Assembly (NCBI GenBank): GCA_903865745.1
Contig: CAIPKV010000028.1
Span: forward strand, 1-64,000
Origin: an uncultured Verrucomicrobia subdivision 3 bacterium
GTDB taxonomy: Bacteria; Verrucomicrobiota; Verrucomicrobiia; Limisphaerales; UBA11358
Reading direction: 5' to 3'
Length of the DNA stretch: 64,000 bases
Below, one piece after another: positions 9,450-55,074 of the stretch. The stretch's first letter is position 1. Every line of letters begins with the position of its first letter. A model generated the notes under the pieces. That model was not told where the DNA came from, ran no database searches, and was given only the letters and a program-made list of their open reading frames with translations. The position numbers were made by a program, and so were the translations under genes.

Positions 9450-9824
9450 GTTTCAGTGCGGCTCAACGTGAAGAACTTCTGGCACCACCCGTCGCGCTGA
9501 AATCAGACCCGTAATGCTCAAATCAAATGGAAGCGGATGCCGGCGGAGCGAAGGGGAGGGTATTTAGACACGAATTGTACGAATTAACACGAACTGGGAA
9601 CGGCCCGGGTAAGCCGGAATTGAATTCGTGCCAGTACGTGAAATTAGGGTCGAGTACACCCACACTCGCCCTGCCGCCGGCTGTTTCATCCTTCATCATT
9701 CCTACTCGTGCATTCGCCGCATGCCTGCCGGCTGTTCTGCAAGCGCGCGCTCCGTTGCGTGCCGGGCAAGTGCCTGCTCCTCACCGTCCGGGCGTGAGGG
9801 TGCCTCTTGCGACTGTGCTTATTG

Positions 9825-9960: not shown

Positions 9961-10106
9961 AACCTCAAGAGCCACCACGGGCGCGACGCGCGCCAACTCC
10001 ACGTTATGTGGAGCTCGATAGCTTGCTTACCGTCAGCGCGACACTCATGCTGCGCCCTGTGATGTTGCTCGCCACCAATCCGATGCCCGCCCCCGCCACT
10101 GGTCAA

Positions 10107-10412
10107 TCCAGTGCCGCCCGGCAGTCATTGCTTGGTAACCACCGGTCATTGGTTGGCGTCAGCCAGTCATTCGCTGGCGTGAGCGAGGGATTGGCTCGTG
10201 CCAGCCAACCATTGGCTGACACCAGCGAGCCATCGGCTAGCGCCAGCCAGCCGTTGGCTGGTGTCAGCGAGTCATCGGCTGGCTCCAGCCAGCGATTGGC
10301 TGGCGCCAAGCATTCATTGGCTGGGGTCAGCCAGCGACTGGTGGTTGTCAGCCAGTCATTGGCTGACGCCAGCGAACAATCGGCTGACGCCAAGCAATCA
10401 TTGGCGGTCGCC
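10107..10412. repeat. Array A: 21-bp tandem array, about 14 units
   Basis: Units begin at 10128, 10149, 10170 and every 21 bp to 10401, with a degenerate unit at 10107. A typical unit is TTGGCTGGCGTCAGCCAGTC plus one A. It contains a small hairpin, GGCTG-(4 nt)-CAGCC. Phase is exact throughout although the units differ at many positions. Both strands lack stops in some frames, giving heptads such as SLAGVSQ, but no start or RBS supports translation. It lies upstream of the 235-aa gene. Confidence 0.92.
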
Positions 10413-10472
10413 TTTCAATTTACCGTTCACCACCCCCAAAACCTCCTATAACTAACCAAAGATAAACTATTT

Positions 10473-11180
10473 ATGCCCTATCATGATTATATCAACAGCA
10501 CTGACATCGGTCTCGCGTCCCAAATGATCACCTTCCGCGACAATATCGCGGGGGAACTCGCTGCGCTAGGCATTCTGGCCACGGATGAAGACATCCTCCA
10601 ACAGGCGTTGGATGCCACCCGCTTCCGGGCAGTCGTGGATTTCAACGGCACCATGCAGCAAGCCGCCATGGGCTGGACGGCCGAGAAGAACTTTGAACGC
10701 GATGGCGGCAGCCTCGCTGCCGCCAGTCAAAATGTGCCCGTCTTGCCCAAGGATTTCCCGCCCGCCGTGCCGCCGGGCATCCTGTCACGTTTCCGCTATC
10801 TGGCGCAGCGCATCAAGGCGCTGAAGACTTACACCATCGCCATCGGTCAGGCGCTCGGTTTGGAAGGCATCAGCGCCGTGGCCAATGCCACCATCGCGGG
10901 CACCGCCCAACCCATCGCCCGGGGCCGGGCCTTGGTCAGCGGTGGTGCGGAAATCGGCTCCAACAAGGCAGATGCCGAAGCGGTGGATATTTACGGTCAA
11001 CGCGATGGCGACCTTGCGCCTCTACGGCTCGCGCGCGTCATGCATCTGCCCTTCATTGACGCCCGCCCGTTGCTGGTGCCCGGCAAGCCGGAGACGCGGG
11101 AATACTACACCGTCTTCGTCCGCAACGATCAGGAATACGGCCAGCCCAGCGCCACCATCAAAGTCGTCGTCACCGCCTGA
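10473..11180 (+). CDS. Conserved hypothetical protein (MPYHDYI family)
   Basis: 235 aa, no signal peptide or membrane helix. I recall proteins with the same MPYHDYI opening as uncharacterised sequences in environmental bacteria, but no function is known to me. The N-terminal part is helical (TDIGLASQMITFRDNIAGEL). The C-terminal part (about 185-235) resembles a beta-rich domain ending TREYYTVFVRNDQEYGQPS, and an internal PPAVPPGILSRFRYLAQRIK segment links them. It sits between array A and the inverted-repeat element at 11244, and is convergent with the efflux operon. Confidence 0.7.
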   Translation: MPYHDYINSTDIGLASQMITFRDNIAGELAALGILATDEDILQQALDATRFRAVVDFNGTMQQAAMGWTAEKNFERDGGSLAAASQNVPVLPKDFPPAVPPGILSRFRYLAQRIKALKTYTIAIGQALGLEGISAVANATIAGTAQPIARGRALVSGGAEIGSNKADAEAVDIYGQRDGDLAPLRLARVMHLPFIDARPLLVPGKPETREYYTVFVRNDQEYGQPSATIKVVVTA

Positions 11181-27127: not shown

Positions 27128-27663
27128 AGCGCCCGTTTCAACCAAAACTGCCGTCTCCCCATTGAAAACCGCCGGCGTGGGAATGAAAAAGTCAGGCGTT
27201 TATTTGAATTCACCGCCTTCCGGGACGAAATAAGTGGGCGGTGAAATGAAATCATCGCGCCCGGAAACCATTTCACCGCGCGGTGAAACCAAAACACCGC
27301 GCGGTGAAACGAAAACACCGCGCGGTGAAACGAAAACACCGCCTGCTGGAATGAAATCGCCGCCCCCTGAAATGAAAACAGCGCGCGGTGAAACCATTTC
27401 GCCGCCCGCCGGACTCATTTCACCGCCCGCCGGAACCAAATCGCCGCCTGCCGGAATGAGTTTACCGCCTGCCCGGATGGAATATGCAGGCGTACGAACG
27501 GTCAGAACGCCTGCCGGAACCACCCGAACGCCTGTCGGAATCAATGGAACGCCTGCCTGAATGAATCGAAGGCCTGCCGAAATCAGTGGAACGCCAGCCA
27601 TTTTCATCCGTACGCCTGCTTGAACGGGTGGAACGCCTGCCGGAATGAGAGAGTTGCCCGCCT
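27128..27663. repeat. Array B: 21-bp tandem array, about 25 units
   Basis: Units begin at 27128 and every 21 bp to 27653, with exact phase. Typical units are ACCGCGCGGTGAAACGAAAA+C (27275, 27296, 27317) and ACGCCTGCCGGAATCAATGG+A. The first type carries the palindrome ACCGCGCGGT. The unit sequence drifts from the GAAAC type to the CCTGCCGG type along the array. It ends exactly against the stop codon of the minus-strand zinc-ribbon gene at 27664. Both strands stay open over long stretches, but no RBS supports a gene. Confidence 0.95.
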
Positions 27664-33962: not shown

Positions 33963-34397
33963 TGCAACGGCTTTTCCGGCCTAAAATGCTCCCTTAGAAC
34001 GGGCTGCGAGCGTTGCAGGGCATTATTTAGGACCCAAATACTGCGTTGCAACCGTTGCAGACCGATTTCAAAGCGTCTCGGGGCTGGTAACGACCGTTGC
34101 AATGACTTCAAAAACTCCTTTTTACTGCCTTGCAACGGTTGCAACGCTACTTTAAGGAGCCGTGGGGCTTGTTACGACCGTTGCAAGGCACTCTAAAAGA
34201 CCTTTTGGGTGGACTGCAACGGTTGCAATGAGTTCCCAAGGTCCCTTTGACTCGTCTGCGACGGTTGCAGCGCTATTTCAAAGCGTCTCGGGGCTTGTTA
34301 CGACGGTTGCAAGGTATTCAAAAAGAGTTTTTTAGTGGGCTGCAACGGTTGCAACGACTCCAAAAAGTCTTTTTTAGAGGACTGTAACGGGCGTGGC
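33963..34397. repeat. Array C: 42-bp (2 x 21) tandem array, about 10-11 units
   Basis: The word GTTGCA recurs at 34012, 34054, 34096, 34138, 34180, 34222, 34264, 34306 and 34348, an exact 42-bp step, with weaker members at 33970 and 34390. The core of each unit is the inverted repeat TGCAACGGTTGCA. The intervening half (e.g. AAAGCGTCTCGGGGCT at two places, AAAAGTCTTTTTTAG at another) alternates, so the basic step is again 21 bp. It lies between two convergent genes; flanks 33849-33962 and 34398-34657 hold no supported gene. Confidence 0.93.
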
Positions 34398-34657
34398 TGA
34401 CCCGATTTGACAGAAGTGAACGAAGGTAACGGAGGTTGGGATTGTAAAAAGAGAAATCCCTTGGTTCGCTTCGCTAGCTTCTGTTCCGGTGGGAATCAAA
34501 ACCTGGCCCGTCACCGTCGTTGCCAATTTGAAGCCGGCATTGGTCGCGCGAAGTACGCGAAGAGGGCGAAGGCGGGCAGGATTTTTTACCTTCGCGGTCT
34601 TCGTGGTCTTCGCGCGACATCCAATTCCTTCAGGCTACTCCATTACTTACCTTTGTT

Positions 34658-47219: not shown

Positions 47220-47411
47220 TATTGCGGCAAAGGGTAAACTTCCGTCCCCTTCAGCACAATTTATTTGATAACCGCTTGGCGGTTCACCGAGTTGTCGCTA
47301 AGGTTCAAGTTGAAAACCGATAGGAAAGAAGATTTCAACCATTTTATCCCTGTCCGGACCTCTAATTAACGGAAAACTGCCAAAATCAGCTCTAACTGTC
47401 CATTTCCTGAC

Positions 47412-47705
47412 CATCCGAAGCGCCGTCGGATACTTCCGAAGGACGTTTTCATACATCCAGCGCCGCTTCGGATACATCCGACGGACTTTTTCAAACATCC
47501 GAAGCCGCATTTCAAACATCCGAAACGCCTTCGGAACCATCCGAAGACAATTTTCATACATCCGAAGCGCCGTCGGAACCATCCGAAGGGCTTTTTCAAA
47601 CATCCAACGCCGCTTCGGAAACATCCGACAGACTTTTTCATACATCCGAAGGCGCGTCGGATACATCCGGCGACCGCTCGGAAACATCCAAAGCCGCGTC
47701 TTAAG
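47412..47705. repeat. Array D: 21-bp tandem array, 14 units
   Basis: CATCC (or CTTCC) starts at 47412, 47433, 47454 and every 21 bp to 47685. Units alternate roughly between a hairpin type, ATCCGA-(7 nt)-TCGGAT, and a T-rich type such as CATCCGACGGACTTTTTCA, giving a 42-bp over-period in parts. On the minus strand the frame reads heptads like MFPKRRW and MYENVLR without stops. The rest of 47220-47811 shows no supported gene. Confidence 0.95.
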
Positions 47706-47811
47706 CTTGATAAATCTATTCCCAAGCTGCTTGCTGACTTTGGCGGGAATGAAGCTGGGGGAAGAATCACCGCTTTCCTGCCTGCCGGCTTTACTTATTA
47801 AAAGCTGGGGC

Positions 47812-51921: not shown

Positions 51922-53145
51922 TCAGGCGAAGTAACGTTCCGCGCGGCGGATGATTTCCGGATAGTCGGTCTTGAAATGGCAACCGTCGCGCAGCGCGGCG
52001 AGATCCACCTTGGCCGTGTCGCGGACGGTCGTCGGCAGGGCGTGATAATAGTTGCGCGCGTCGGTGTTGCCGTCCTGTTCGTAGTACGTCACGAAACGGG
52101 CGATGTCGTGGAAGGCGAAATCCGTCTGCTTCGCAAAGGCCTCGCAGGACGGGCAACCGGTGCACATCGTGCGGCGACCGGCAATGATGGTTTCCTTGAG
52201 CAGTTCGAGGTGCGCGAATTTGAGCGGCGTCTTATAGCTGCGCGCCGCGCTGGTGCTGCTCTGCATCTGGTCCACATTGTCAATCATGTTGACGATGGCG
52301 GTAATGCGCGGGTCGCTCCAGACGGAATGCAGCACGGCCTGATGGGTGGTGAGGCCGAGCTTGTCAAATTCCGGCAGGCGCTTCGGGACGTCCTTGGTGG
52401 TGCGCATGGTTTTCATCGCGATGAGGCCAATGCCCGCCTGATGCGCCGCGTCGAACGCCTGATCAAACTTCCCGCCCTTTTCATAAAACGGATTGAACGC
52501 GAGCATGATGATGTCCAGAAATCCGCCCGCCGCCGCCGCGTTCAGATAATCCGGCAGCCGCCCGTCATGACAGGAGAAGCCCACCAGCTTAACCTTGCCG
52601 GAACTCTTCAAGGTCTCGGCCGTTTTCTTGAAGGCATCGCTCTTCGGCCAGTTCAGCGAATCTTCACCGTATTCGCGCGGGCCGATGCCGTGGATATAAA
52701 ATGCGTCGAGATAGGTGGTGCCCAGCGCGGCGAGCCGCTTGTCAATCATCGTGAGCAATTGCTCCGGGCCTTTGTGCGGATGATCTTTGGAGACGAGAAA
52801 AATCTCTTTCCGGCGCTCCGGATATTTGGCCAGCCATTGCCCGAAGATTTTTTCCGACTGGCCATGGAGATAGCAATCCGCCGTATCGAAGTAACGGATG
52901 CCCATGGACCAGGCGATATCAATGTAATCCGGGCTTAAGGCGCCCATCATGCCGCCCATGCCGAGCAGCGTGACCGGCGGTCCGTTCTTTCCGAGCTGTC
53001 GGCGCGGCAAGCTGGCGGATGCGGGCGCCTCAGCCGCCGTGGCGGCCTGCGTGAACAGGGAAGGCGCGGCGGCGAGCGCGACCGGCAGGGTCAGCGTGGA
53101 TTTGAGAAAGCTGCGGCGGGAGGTGGCTGAATGGTTATCTTTCAT
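51922..53145 (-). CDS. Tat-exported aldo/keto reductase
   Basis: 407 aa. Tat signal TSRRSFLKSTLTLPVALAAA. The AKR barrel has FDTADCYLHGQSE with catalytic Asp/Tyr, LVSKDHPHKG for the Lys strand and DAFYIHGIG for the His. A Cys cluster CTGCPSCEAFAKQ near residue 325 suggests an iron-sulfur or structural metal site in the C-terminal extension, as in the AKR/4Fe-4S subfamily. First gene of the operon leading to DUF6599, DUF362 and polyferredoxin. Export of an NAD(P)-type enzyme is odd, so the true cofactor may differ. Confidence 0.83.
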   Translation of the reverse strand: MKDNHSATSRRSFLKSTLTLPVALAAAPSLFTQAATAAEAPASASLPRRQLGKNGPPVTLLGMGGMMGALSPDYIDIAWSMGIRYFDTADCYLHGQSEKIFGQWLAKYPERRKEIFLVSKDHPHKGPEQLLTMIDKRLAALGTTYLDAFYIHGIGPREYGEDSLNWPKSDAFKKTAETLKSSGKVKLVGFSCHDGRLPDYLNAAAAGGFLDIIMLAFNPFYEKGGKFDQAFDAAHQAGIGLIAMKTMRTTKDVPKRLPEFDKLGLTTHQAVLHSVWSDPRITAIVNMIDNVDQMQSSTSAARSYKTPLKFAHLELLKETIIAGRRTMCTGCPSCEAFAKQTDFAFHDIARFVTYYEQDGNTDARNYYHALPTTVRDTAKVDLAALRDGCHFKTDYPEIIRRAERYFA

Positions 53146-53367
53146 GGTTGGTATGCTGAAAAACTAGCACTGGAGTTGACTGACGGCAACGGGAATTGAA
53201 CTTTAAGTGACCTGCTGCAGTCCGCAAACCCGGTCTTGGTTTTATCCGCAGATAACGCCGATTCCGCAGATTAAAAAAGTGAAACCTGTGTCTATTGTGG
53301 AGTTGGCCGGTAGCGGGTGGTATTAATAGGTCAACGAACAGCCCGGACTTACTCCCTTGCGGCCATT

Positions 53368-53556
53368 AAGCGGGAGCTTGGGTCGCCAAAGCGGGAGCTT
53401 GGCTGATTAAAGCGGGAGCTTGAACGTCACAAGCGGGAGCTTGCGTGAGCCAAGCGGGAGCTTTTGTAACACAAGCGGGAGCTTGGACGACCGAAGCGGG
53501 AGCTTTTGTCATGCAAGCGGGAGCTTTTGTCACGTAAGCGGGAGCTTACGTGTATA
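53368..53556. repeat. Array E: 21-bp tandem array, 9 units
   Basis: The 12-mer AAGCGGGAGCTT begins at 53368, 53389, 53410, 53431, 53452, 53473, 53494, 53515 and 53536. The core is invariant or nearly so (an AAGC-GGGA-GCTT hairpin) while the following 9 nt differ in most units. The rest of the gap has no supported gene: 53146-53367 and 53557-53751 show only degenerate words, including an inverted repeat CACCAATTAG/CTAATTGGTG around 53656-53706. Confidence 0.96.
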
Positions 53557-53751
53557 GAAAACAACAGTTGGCGGACGGTAAATGTGGTTAAGCCGTTGAC
53601 AGCGGCGCGCTTGGGCCGAATCTGCGGTTTTTGGGTCAGGGCAGACGCGAATTTCACCAATTAGCAGGAATCCAATTCCGGCATCTACGTGCAGCTCCTA
53701 ATTGGTGTTAATTAGTGGAATTCGTGTCTAACCCTTCACCCCCGCAGGCTT

Positions 53752-54966
53752 TCACCGCACCTTTTCAAATGCGAAGCCCTTGAGATATTCCGTCTCGGGA
53801 ATCATCGGGATGATGGGGTGATCTGGTGATTGCGCGTAGCTCCCTACGCGGCGCAGGACGTGGCGCGTGTCGTACGCGGCCGAGAGCAGCGTATCCTGAA
53901 ACAGTTCGGTGCTGACATGGTGCGAACAACAGAAGGTCGCCAGTGTGCCGCCCGGTTTGAGCAGTTTCAAGGCGCGCAGATGAATCTCCTTGTAGCCGCG
54001 CAGGGCGTCCGGCACCGAGGCGCGGTTGCGGGTGAATGACGGCGGATCGAGGATGATGAGATCGAAGCGCGGGATGACGCGTTCGTGCGGCTTGACGGCG
54101 GTATTCAGCTTGAGCCAGTCGAAGACGTTCACGGTCTCGAAGGAGCATTTGTCCGCGAGCTTATTGGTCTGGGCGTTGCGTTCGGAAGCGGCGATGGCGT
54201 CGGCGCTCTGGTCGAGCAGGTGGACGTGGGCCGCACCCGTGCGCGCGGCGTGCAGGCCGAACCCGCCGAGAAAGCTGAAGCAATCCAGGACTTGCCCGCC
54301 TTTGGCGAATTGGGAGACGGCCTGATAATTCGCCTGTTGGTCGAGGTACATGCCGGTTTTGTGGCCGCCAATCAAATCGGTTTCAAACTTTAAGCCGTTC
54401 AGGCTCACGGCTACGGGGCCATTTTGTTCACCGAACAACATGCCGTTGGATTCCGCCAATCCTTCGAACTTGCGCGAGGCGACGTCGCTGCGTTCGGCGA
54501 TGGCGCGGGGCGAGAAGATGGTTTGCAGGGCGGCGAGGATGTGCGCCTTGCGCAATTCCATGCCGAGCGCAGAAATCTGCACGACGAGGACGTCCTCGTA
54601 TTTGTCCACGATGAGGCCGCTCAAGAAATCGCTCTCGGCATTGACCACGCGAAAGGAGGTTGCCCCGGGCAGATGCCGCTGGCGCACGGCGAGCGCGGCG
54701 CGGATGCGTTCCTCGAAGAAGGCTTCGTTGGGAATGATGCGGTCGGGGGCGAGCAGACGGACGTTGATCTTGGATTTGGAATTGTAAAAGCCCGTGCCGA
54801 GCAGCCGTTGGCGGTGATCCTTGACTTGCACGAGGTCGCCATCGGCGGCGGGGGTGGCGAGCCGGAGCACCTCGTTATTGTAAATCCAGGGATGACCGGC
54901 GACGATGCGGTCGGCCTCGCCGGGCCGGAGCAGGACAGTGGGGAGCGTATCAATGATTGTAGACAT
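53752..54966 (-). CDS. RlmI-like class I SAM-dependent RNA methyltransferase
   Basis: 404 aa from the ATG at 54966. A PUA-like N-terminus (LRPGEADRIVAGHPWIYNNEV) precedes the methyltransferase: VLDCFSFLGGFGLHAARTGA as SAM loop and DLIILDPPSFTR as catalytic motif, typical of RlmI (23S rRNA m5C1962). FCCSHHVSTE follows. Cytoplasmic. It lies downstream of array E on the minus strand and is divergent from the CBS gene. Confidence 0.9.
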   Translation of the reverse strand: MSTIIDTLPTVLLRPGEADRIVAGHPWIYNNEVLRLATPAADGDLVQVKDHRQRLLGTGFYNSKSKINVRLLAPDRIIPNEAFFEERIRAALAVRQRHLPGATSFRVVNAESDFLSGLIVDKYEDVLVVQISALGMELRKAHILAALQTIFSPRAIAERSDVASRKFEGLAESNGMLFGEQNGPVAVSLNGLKFETDLIGGHKTGMYLDQQANYQAVSQFAKGGQVLDCFSFLGGFGLHAARTGAAHVHLLDQSADAIAASERNAQTNKLADKCSFETVNVFDWLKLNTAVKPHERVIPRFDLIILDPPSFTRNRASVPDALRGYKEIHLRALKLLKPGGTLATFCCSHHVSTELFQDTLLSAAYDTRHVLRRVGSYAQSPDHPIIPMIPETEYLKGFAFEKVR

Positions 54967-55074
54967 AAGGGAGTTTCGCAAGGCGGGGCAGGGCGGGGAA
55001 GCAAATTTATCCCAAGGAGTTGAATTATTTGCTTGAGTTGCCGGGCAAACGGGCCGATAAAAGTCCATAAGCCT

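Follow-up and report, generated by a model that had tools for sequence, protein, structure and literature searches.

A short sequence that stands between two genes in nine identical copies, separated by 9-nt segments that vary, raises the question of what holds the repeated part constant and whether the remainder is free to change. This array, termed array E, occupies positions 53368–53547 of the window, i.e., the whole stretch of 64,000 nt that was analysed, and belongs to the 3.63-Mb genome of an uncultured bacterium that its nearest relatives place in Limisphaerales / Verrucomicrobia subdivision 3. It consists of nine exact copies of the 12-nt core AAGCGGGAGCTT, starting at 53368, 53389, and so on to 53536, which alternate with the 9-nt segments (9-mers) at a strict period of 21 bp, and TRF independently reports the same interval. 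In 100 dinucleotide shuffles, matches to AAGCGGGAGCTT with at most one mismatch averaged 0.47 and never exceeded 3. A first-pass annotation had recognized the nine-fold core and its 21-bp spacing, but it considered the copies almost unchanged, when no change whatsoever is found among them, and extended the array over 53368–53556. The last 9 nt of that interval (53548–53556, ACGTGTATA) already belong to a conserved right flank common to four other arrays. When the core was sought elsewhere in the genome, as the same annotation had proposed, it never occurred singly: besides array E, it is found only in an array of ten copies on the minus strand at C85:62662–62862. Moreover, no other genome of a 388-genome sample of the phylum contains two AAGCGGGAGCTT cores in register.

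Array E is intergenic, and both neighbouring genes lie on the minus strand. An aldo/keto reductase gene (51922–53145) begins 222 bp away with the array on its upstream side, while the array is downstream of a gene for a SAM-dependent methyltransferase with a PUA-like domain (53752–55068); this adjacency of reductase and methyltransferase was found in no relative examined. The left flank (53297–53367) matches that of the C85 array, its last ~20 bp being nearly identical. The right flank (53548–53670, ~123 bp), which runs from ACGTGTATARAAAACAACAGTTRGCGGA... to ...CGAATTTCACCAATT, also occurs at C85, C79, and C52:75316, and its first ~52 bp at C52:10722; the four longer copies lose the match at about the same point. 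Two further short interspersed repeats surround the array, one at 53240–53285, which recurs at several loci of the genome and once in another genome (G013), and one at 53644–53731, which recurs at 9564–9651 of the window.

Array E has a paralogue in the C85 array, which lies on the opposite strand and is alignable over ~123 bp of right flank and ~71 bp of left flank, and the sole indel between the two is one whole 21-bp unit. The nine pairs of cores show no difference in 108 positions, whereas the eight pairs of 9-mers differ at 7 of 72 and the outer flanks at 27 of 127. The contrast between cores and 9-mers (Fisher p=0.0014) argues for sequence-specific constraint on the core, also in array E, which lacks the gene that accompanies its twin (see below). 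When the 9-mer rate is taken as neutral and divided between both lineages, that of array E alone should have accumulated about five core changes and none is observed, an estimate that makes it unlikely that array E is a dead repeat. Gene conversion between the twins may also account for the unchanged cores. The view of the first-pass annotation that core and spacing are kept is supported by the unchanged cores and the unit-sized indel. On its other side, the C85 twin adjoins a BglII-type restriction endonuclease gene (PF09195, L129:9497–10108).

The 9-mers are not free. The column information of the 12 distinct 9-mers of both twins is 5.55 bits, as compared with 1.92 ± 0.48 bits in sets with shuffled letters (p=0.0002), and their weak consensus is roughly G-N-G-Y-S-A-C-N-N, with a pyrimidine throughout at position 4. 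The divergence of the 9-mers stays below that of the outer flanks (7/72 vs 27/127, p=0.049). Related arrays with a GACGTC-centred core show the same column preferences, and a comparison of their 9-mers with those of the AAGCGGGAGCTT arrays unit by unit yielded nothing significant beyond these common preferences (p=0.25). The earlier statements that the 9-nt parts are largely unrelated and that everything outside the core can vary at will are therefore not borne out. The annotation had regarded conservation of the 9-mers unit by unit as evidence against free variation, and units 1–4 of the paralogous twin do carry the 9-mers of array E, identical and in the same order. It had also likened the layout to repeats and spacers. 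Array E resembles CRISPR in combining a perfect, array-specific short repeat with variable segments of constant length; however, CRISPR repeats measure ~23–50 nt and their spacers are unique and similar in length, whereas array E has a 12-nt core and 9-nt segments that share a consensus among themselves and with related arrays. This consensus and the units shared between twins fit poorly with captured unique spacers, and the change between twins shows no polarity, so that CRISPR-like spacer capture was rejected. No cas genes adjoin array E, and the annotation itself had judged the layout too short for CRISPR.

Array E is one member of a genome-wide class. A lag scan revealed 67 tandem arrays in 1.30 Mb of the genome and none in shuffled sequence, with base periods of 21 bp in 56 arrays, 22 bp in four, and 41 bp (2 x 20.5) in two; these periods follow two helix turns rather than codons. 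About 63 of them are two-turn arrays (20.5–22 bp), which in this Limisphaerales (Verrucomicrobiota) genome extrapolates to ~175 per genome, or about one per 19–20 kb. In all, ~1.7 of 3.6 Mb was scanned directly, a part of it selected for known matches, and genes were called by simple ORF rules. The window itself contains array A (10092–10447, 21 bp, unit of the TGGCTGGCGCCAGCCAG type), located upstream of a linked gene, and two gene-less arrays of the two-turn class, namely array B (27163–27663, 21 bp) and array D (47395–47731, 21/42 bp). Strict 22-bp arrays occur at L155:17857, L163:9656, L184:15314, and L141:11895 and strict 41-bp arrays at L146:13941 and L156:10691, and a 42-bp array of GCAACGGTTGCAACG units at 34126–34409 of the window is less regular than the others. 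Coding of a heptapeptide repeat was rejected, as five of the six frames of array E have stops within or between units and the minus-strand frame that is open through array E is interrupted, by visual inspection, in the C85 twin.

The unit differs from one array family to the next, and grouping by similarity divides 84 arrays into 41 sets. Of these arrays, 79% exhibit significant dyad symmetry against column shuffles (mean z 3.1), about one fifth being without it, and the two arms of the dyads do not covary (4268 complementary pairs observed vs 4272 expected in 128 dyads). Symmetry of the consensus combined with the absence of covariation points to half-sites for a DNA-binding dimer and away from hairpins. 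The constraint on cores is not peculiar to array E. Across 17 paralogous array pairs, differences amount to 9.3% in conserved columns and 21.9% in variable columns, the latter figure being somewhat inflated by misaligned units, and three pairs of low divergence show the same tendency (0/110 vs 7/113, 3/115 vs 10/120, and 2/117 vs 13/127); a very close pair (L155/L163, four differences) has no such trend. Gene-less arrays lie in 34 codirectional, 21 divergent, and 13 convergent gaps against a baseline of 542, 173, and 177. Neither they nor the arrays as a whole have a promoter-type gap preference, which speaks against simple promoter control by the gene-less arrays. Arrays are not enriched between convergent genes, so that a role as terminators was also discarded.

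Many arrays are linked to one family of genes. ORFs that recur beside arrays formed two groups without adequate Pfam matches, and an array lies upstream within 700 bp in 7/7 copies of the first group and 6/8 of the second, although stretches this close to an array make up only 7.6% of the DNA sampled. A joint profile of both groups retrieved 26 members from 1.69 Mb. An array precedes 21 of them, no member is accompanied by an array solely on its downstream side, and since three of the remaining five have no upstream sequence, the linkage holds for 21 of 23 usable members. In the whole genome, 38 family members were found, and all 30 loci that were cut out, a set overlapping the previous one, have an array upstream. 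Family members are present in 29 of 49 genomes of the same genus, where 18 of 21 usable loci from other genomes are preceded by an array that looks different in nearly each genome. As a control, 10.4% of 800 ORFs of the same genome have an upstream array, a set that includes family members and their neighbours and thus overestimates the true background. Among 200 upstream sequences that were shuffled, no array was found.

The proteins of this family (~200–235 aa) combine a helical N-terminal half with a C-terminal fn3 beta-sandwich, as indicated by AlphaFold models (mean pLDDT 94 and 89.5), Foldseek matches to fn3, and profile matches to titin and fibronectin down to E=1e-16. Pfam returned only weak fn3 or DUF matches and PHROGs only weak matches to tail proteins, mostly over the fn3 part, while NCBIfam and PADLOC gave no meaningful match. 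The only family gene found in the window (10473–11180, plus strand, 235 aa) has array A 26 bp upstream, and a gene 95% identical to it, with a different array core, is located at C52:93068. A phage or plasmid origin of the family was tried with one member and set aside, as neither viral contigs nor plasmids or phages contained a relative. The family also extends, patchily, to further orders and classes of the phylum (G051, G274, G105, G052, G283, and G308), according to a search that scored only a few candidates per genome.

Array E itself has no such gene. Its C85 twin lies upstream of the family gene C85:63314–63913 (within L129:11302–11916), whose place in the window, on the side of the left flank, is occupied by the aldo/keto reductase gene. 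When a cassette is defined as a family gene immediately preceded by a two-turn array, C85 is one and array E is not. Having the core and inner flanks of C85 but no gene, array E represents a dispersed copy of a cassette's upstream module from which the gene is missing. Among gene-less arrays in general, 23 of 59 resemble, in core or flank, one of 30 gene-linked arrays of the same genome, and five of the 59 resemble one of 20 gene-linked arrays of other genomes. Elsewhere, an insertion is visible at the junction of an oxidoreductase gene with lpxB: an array-bearing stretch of ~590 bp stands in place of 3–18 bp in four relatives. The same junction (L165:11774–12361; relatives L284–L310) holds different insertions in other relatives, in a hot-spot-like manner. 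In G018, an array whose core is not the same immediately precedes lpxB.

These copies also reveal how cores change. Five elements possess the right flank of array E, namely E, C85, C79:90520, C52:10722, and C52:75316, and almost every unit of the last three has a core centred on GACGTC (ACAGACGTCTGT type). Likewise, the left flanks of L147 and L159 are 95–99% identical over 145–158 bp, and their cores differ. Since common flanks accompany different cores in two families, the core can be replaced across a whole array, with the flanks and the weak spacer consensus being retained.

With a confidence only a little above even, array E is interpreted here as a row of dyad sites for a cooperative, probably dimeric DNA-binding protein, in a gene-less copy of a cassette composed of an array and an fn3-type gene. 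Sites spaced by two helix turns would all lie on one face of the DNA, where a putative sequence-specific protein, probably a dimer, could occupy the array cooperatively. Because cores differ between array families, reader specificity presumably does as well, and E and C85 share one core. The bound complex might serve to control the cassette gene or its neighbours, it might help a recombinase to act on or move the cassette, or it might organize the DNA. What is shown are the exact cores and spacing, the dyads, the constraint, and the linkage to a gene family; such a protein, its dimeric state, its cooperativity, and the role of the complex are inferred. Several points weigh against this interpretation: dozens of cores need many readers or one reader that switches specificity, the reader protein is only putative, a preference for promoter gaps is missing, and the fifth of arrays devoid of a dyad does not conform.

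The obvious candidate for the reader would be the linked fn3-type protein, each recognizing its own cognate array, and both the near-constant linkage and the divergence of the protein sequences accord with this idea. However, the L351 and L357 proteins are 95% identical and have different array cores, arrays of protein pairs with 80–83% identity share few 8-mers, and a helical N-terminus joined to fn3 includes no known DNA-binding domain. The linked protein is thus probably not the reader, and its action as such is judged improbable. Neutral minisatellites, generated by slippage and homogenized via unequal exchange, would explain the unit-wise indels, e.g., the 21-bp unit between E and C85, as well as the L200 and L201 arrays, in which each of the 21 columns is almost invariant. 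Yet homogenization would not spare 9 of 21 columns, and it leaves unexplained the two-turn period at unrelated sequences, the dyads, and the linkage to one gene family, so that this origin seems very improbable. Even less credit can be given to a structural RNA or cruciform in which the unit folds as a hairpin (AAGC-GGGA-GCTT, with a GNRA-type loop). The units are palindromic and a GNRA-like loop can be read from the plus strand of array E, but complementarity within units is not in excess over the 128 dyads, some cores are too tight for a loop, and no Rfam family applies, the best match falling far below the gathering score and outside the array. Wrapping around archaeal-type (HMf-type) histones was rejected, given that the genome has no match to PF00808.

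More weight is due to the possibility, unlikely as it remains in our assessment, that the array is the cis part of a MITE-like mobile element, with sites on which a trans-acting transposase or recombinase would work and gene-less copies as non-autonomous offspring. Dispersed copies with common flanks, among them four copies of the family of array E whose right ends fall at nearly one point, are expected of such an element, as are the ~590-bp stretch by lpxB, the patchiness of the gene family among the 49 genomes of the genus, and the kinship of gene-less with gene-linked arrays. On the other hand, neither inverted-repeat ends nor a target site duplication was seen by eye at the ends of the array E family and at the oxidoreductase–lpxB site, in a comparison that had no near-identical empty site. 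Furthermore, no common transposase was found beside the arrays, with two Y1_Tnp genes in the whole genome, and the constraint on the core persists in a gene-less copy, which would be needless for a dead one. Array E has in common with MITEs that a longer unit recurs at dispersed places without its gene, and it differs from them in its constrained core; of its ends, the right one coincides in four copies and the left one is ill-defined.

Two other known systems show partial likeness. REP/BIME elements and their RAYT proteins also involve intergenic palindromic repeats in many copies, with families within one genome; in contrast, the present arrays have strict two-turn tandem spacing and a core for each array, AAGCGGGAGCTT has no GTAG tag, and neither Y1_Tnp gene is beside array E, so that this affiliation was rejected. 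Plasmid iterons are direct repeats of ~17–22 bp, spaced by two helix turns and bound by an initiator, and the 21-bp direct repeats of array E match this spacing. Nevertheless, iterons differ from dyad-symmetric units in chromosomal intergenic regions at an extrapolated ~175 per genome, and no replication initiator gene lies beside array E, its neighbours being of metabolic and RNA-modification type. A search of open-access papers found no earlier description of a module of array plus gene. As nothing in the searched sources matches and no known kind fits, it is tentatively proposed, at rather less than even confidence, that the arrays belong to a new bacterial system of fn3-gene cassettes with a block-exchangeable core, in which gene, flanks, and weak spacer consensus stay and gene-less arrays are under selection. 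It would be as though either a family of readers that switch specificity or a process that renews the cores of an array all at once operated on dozens of sites per genome.

If the array were an ordinary row of operators or of transposase sites, its kind would already be known. Otherwise, about one array per 19–20 kb would belong to a nameless system, in which a rapidly diverging protein family is coupled to array-specific, strictly phased sites that change in concert, and this system would be a test bed for specificity switching in multi-site DNA recognition. The E/C85 pair, with one 12-bp core in 19 copies and nowhere else in the genome, provides a ready probe. A distinct 7/14-bp repeat, CTTTGGACTTTAGA, was observed at contig ends (L133:6000–6231 and L191:1–215), which are probably assembly break points.
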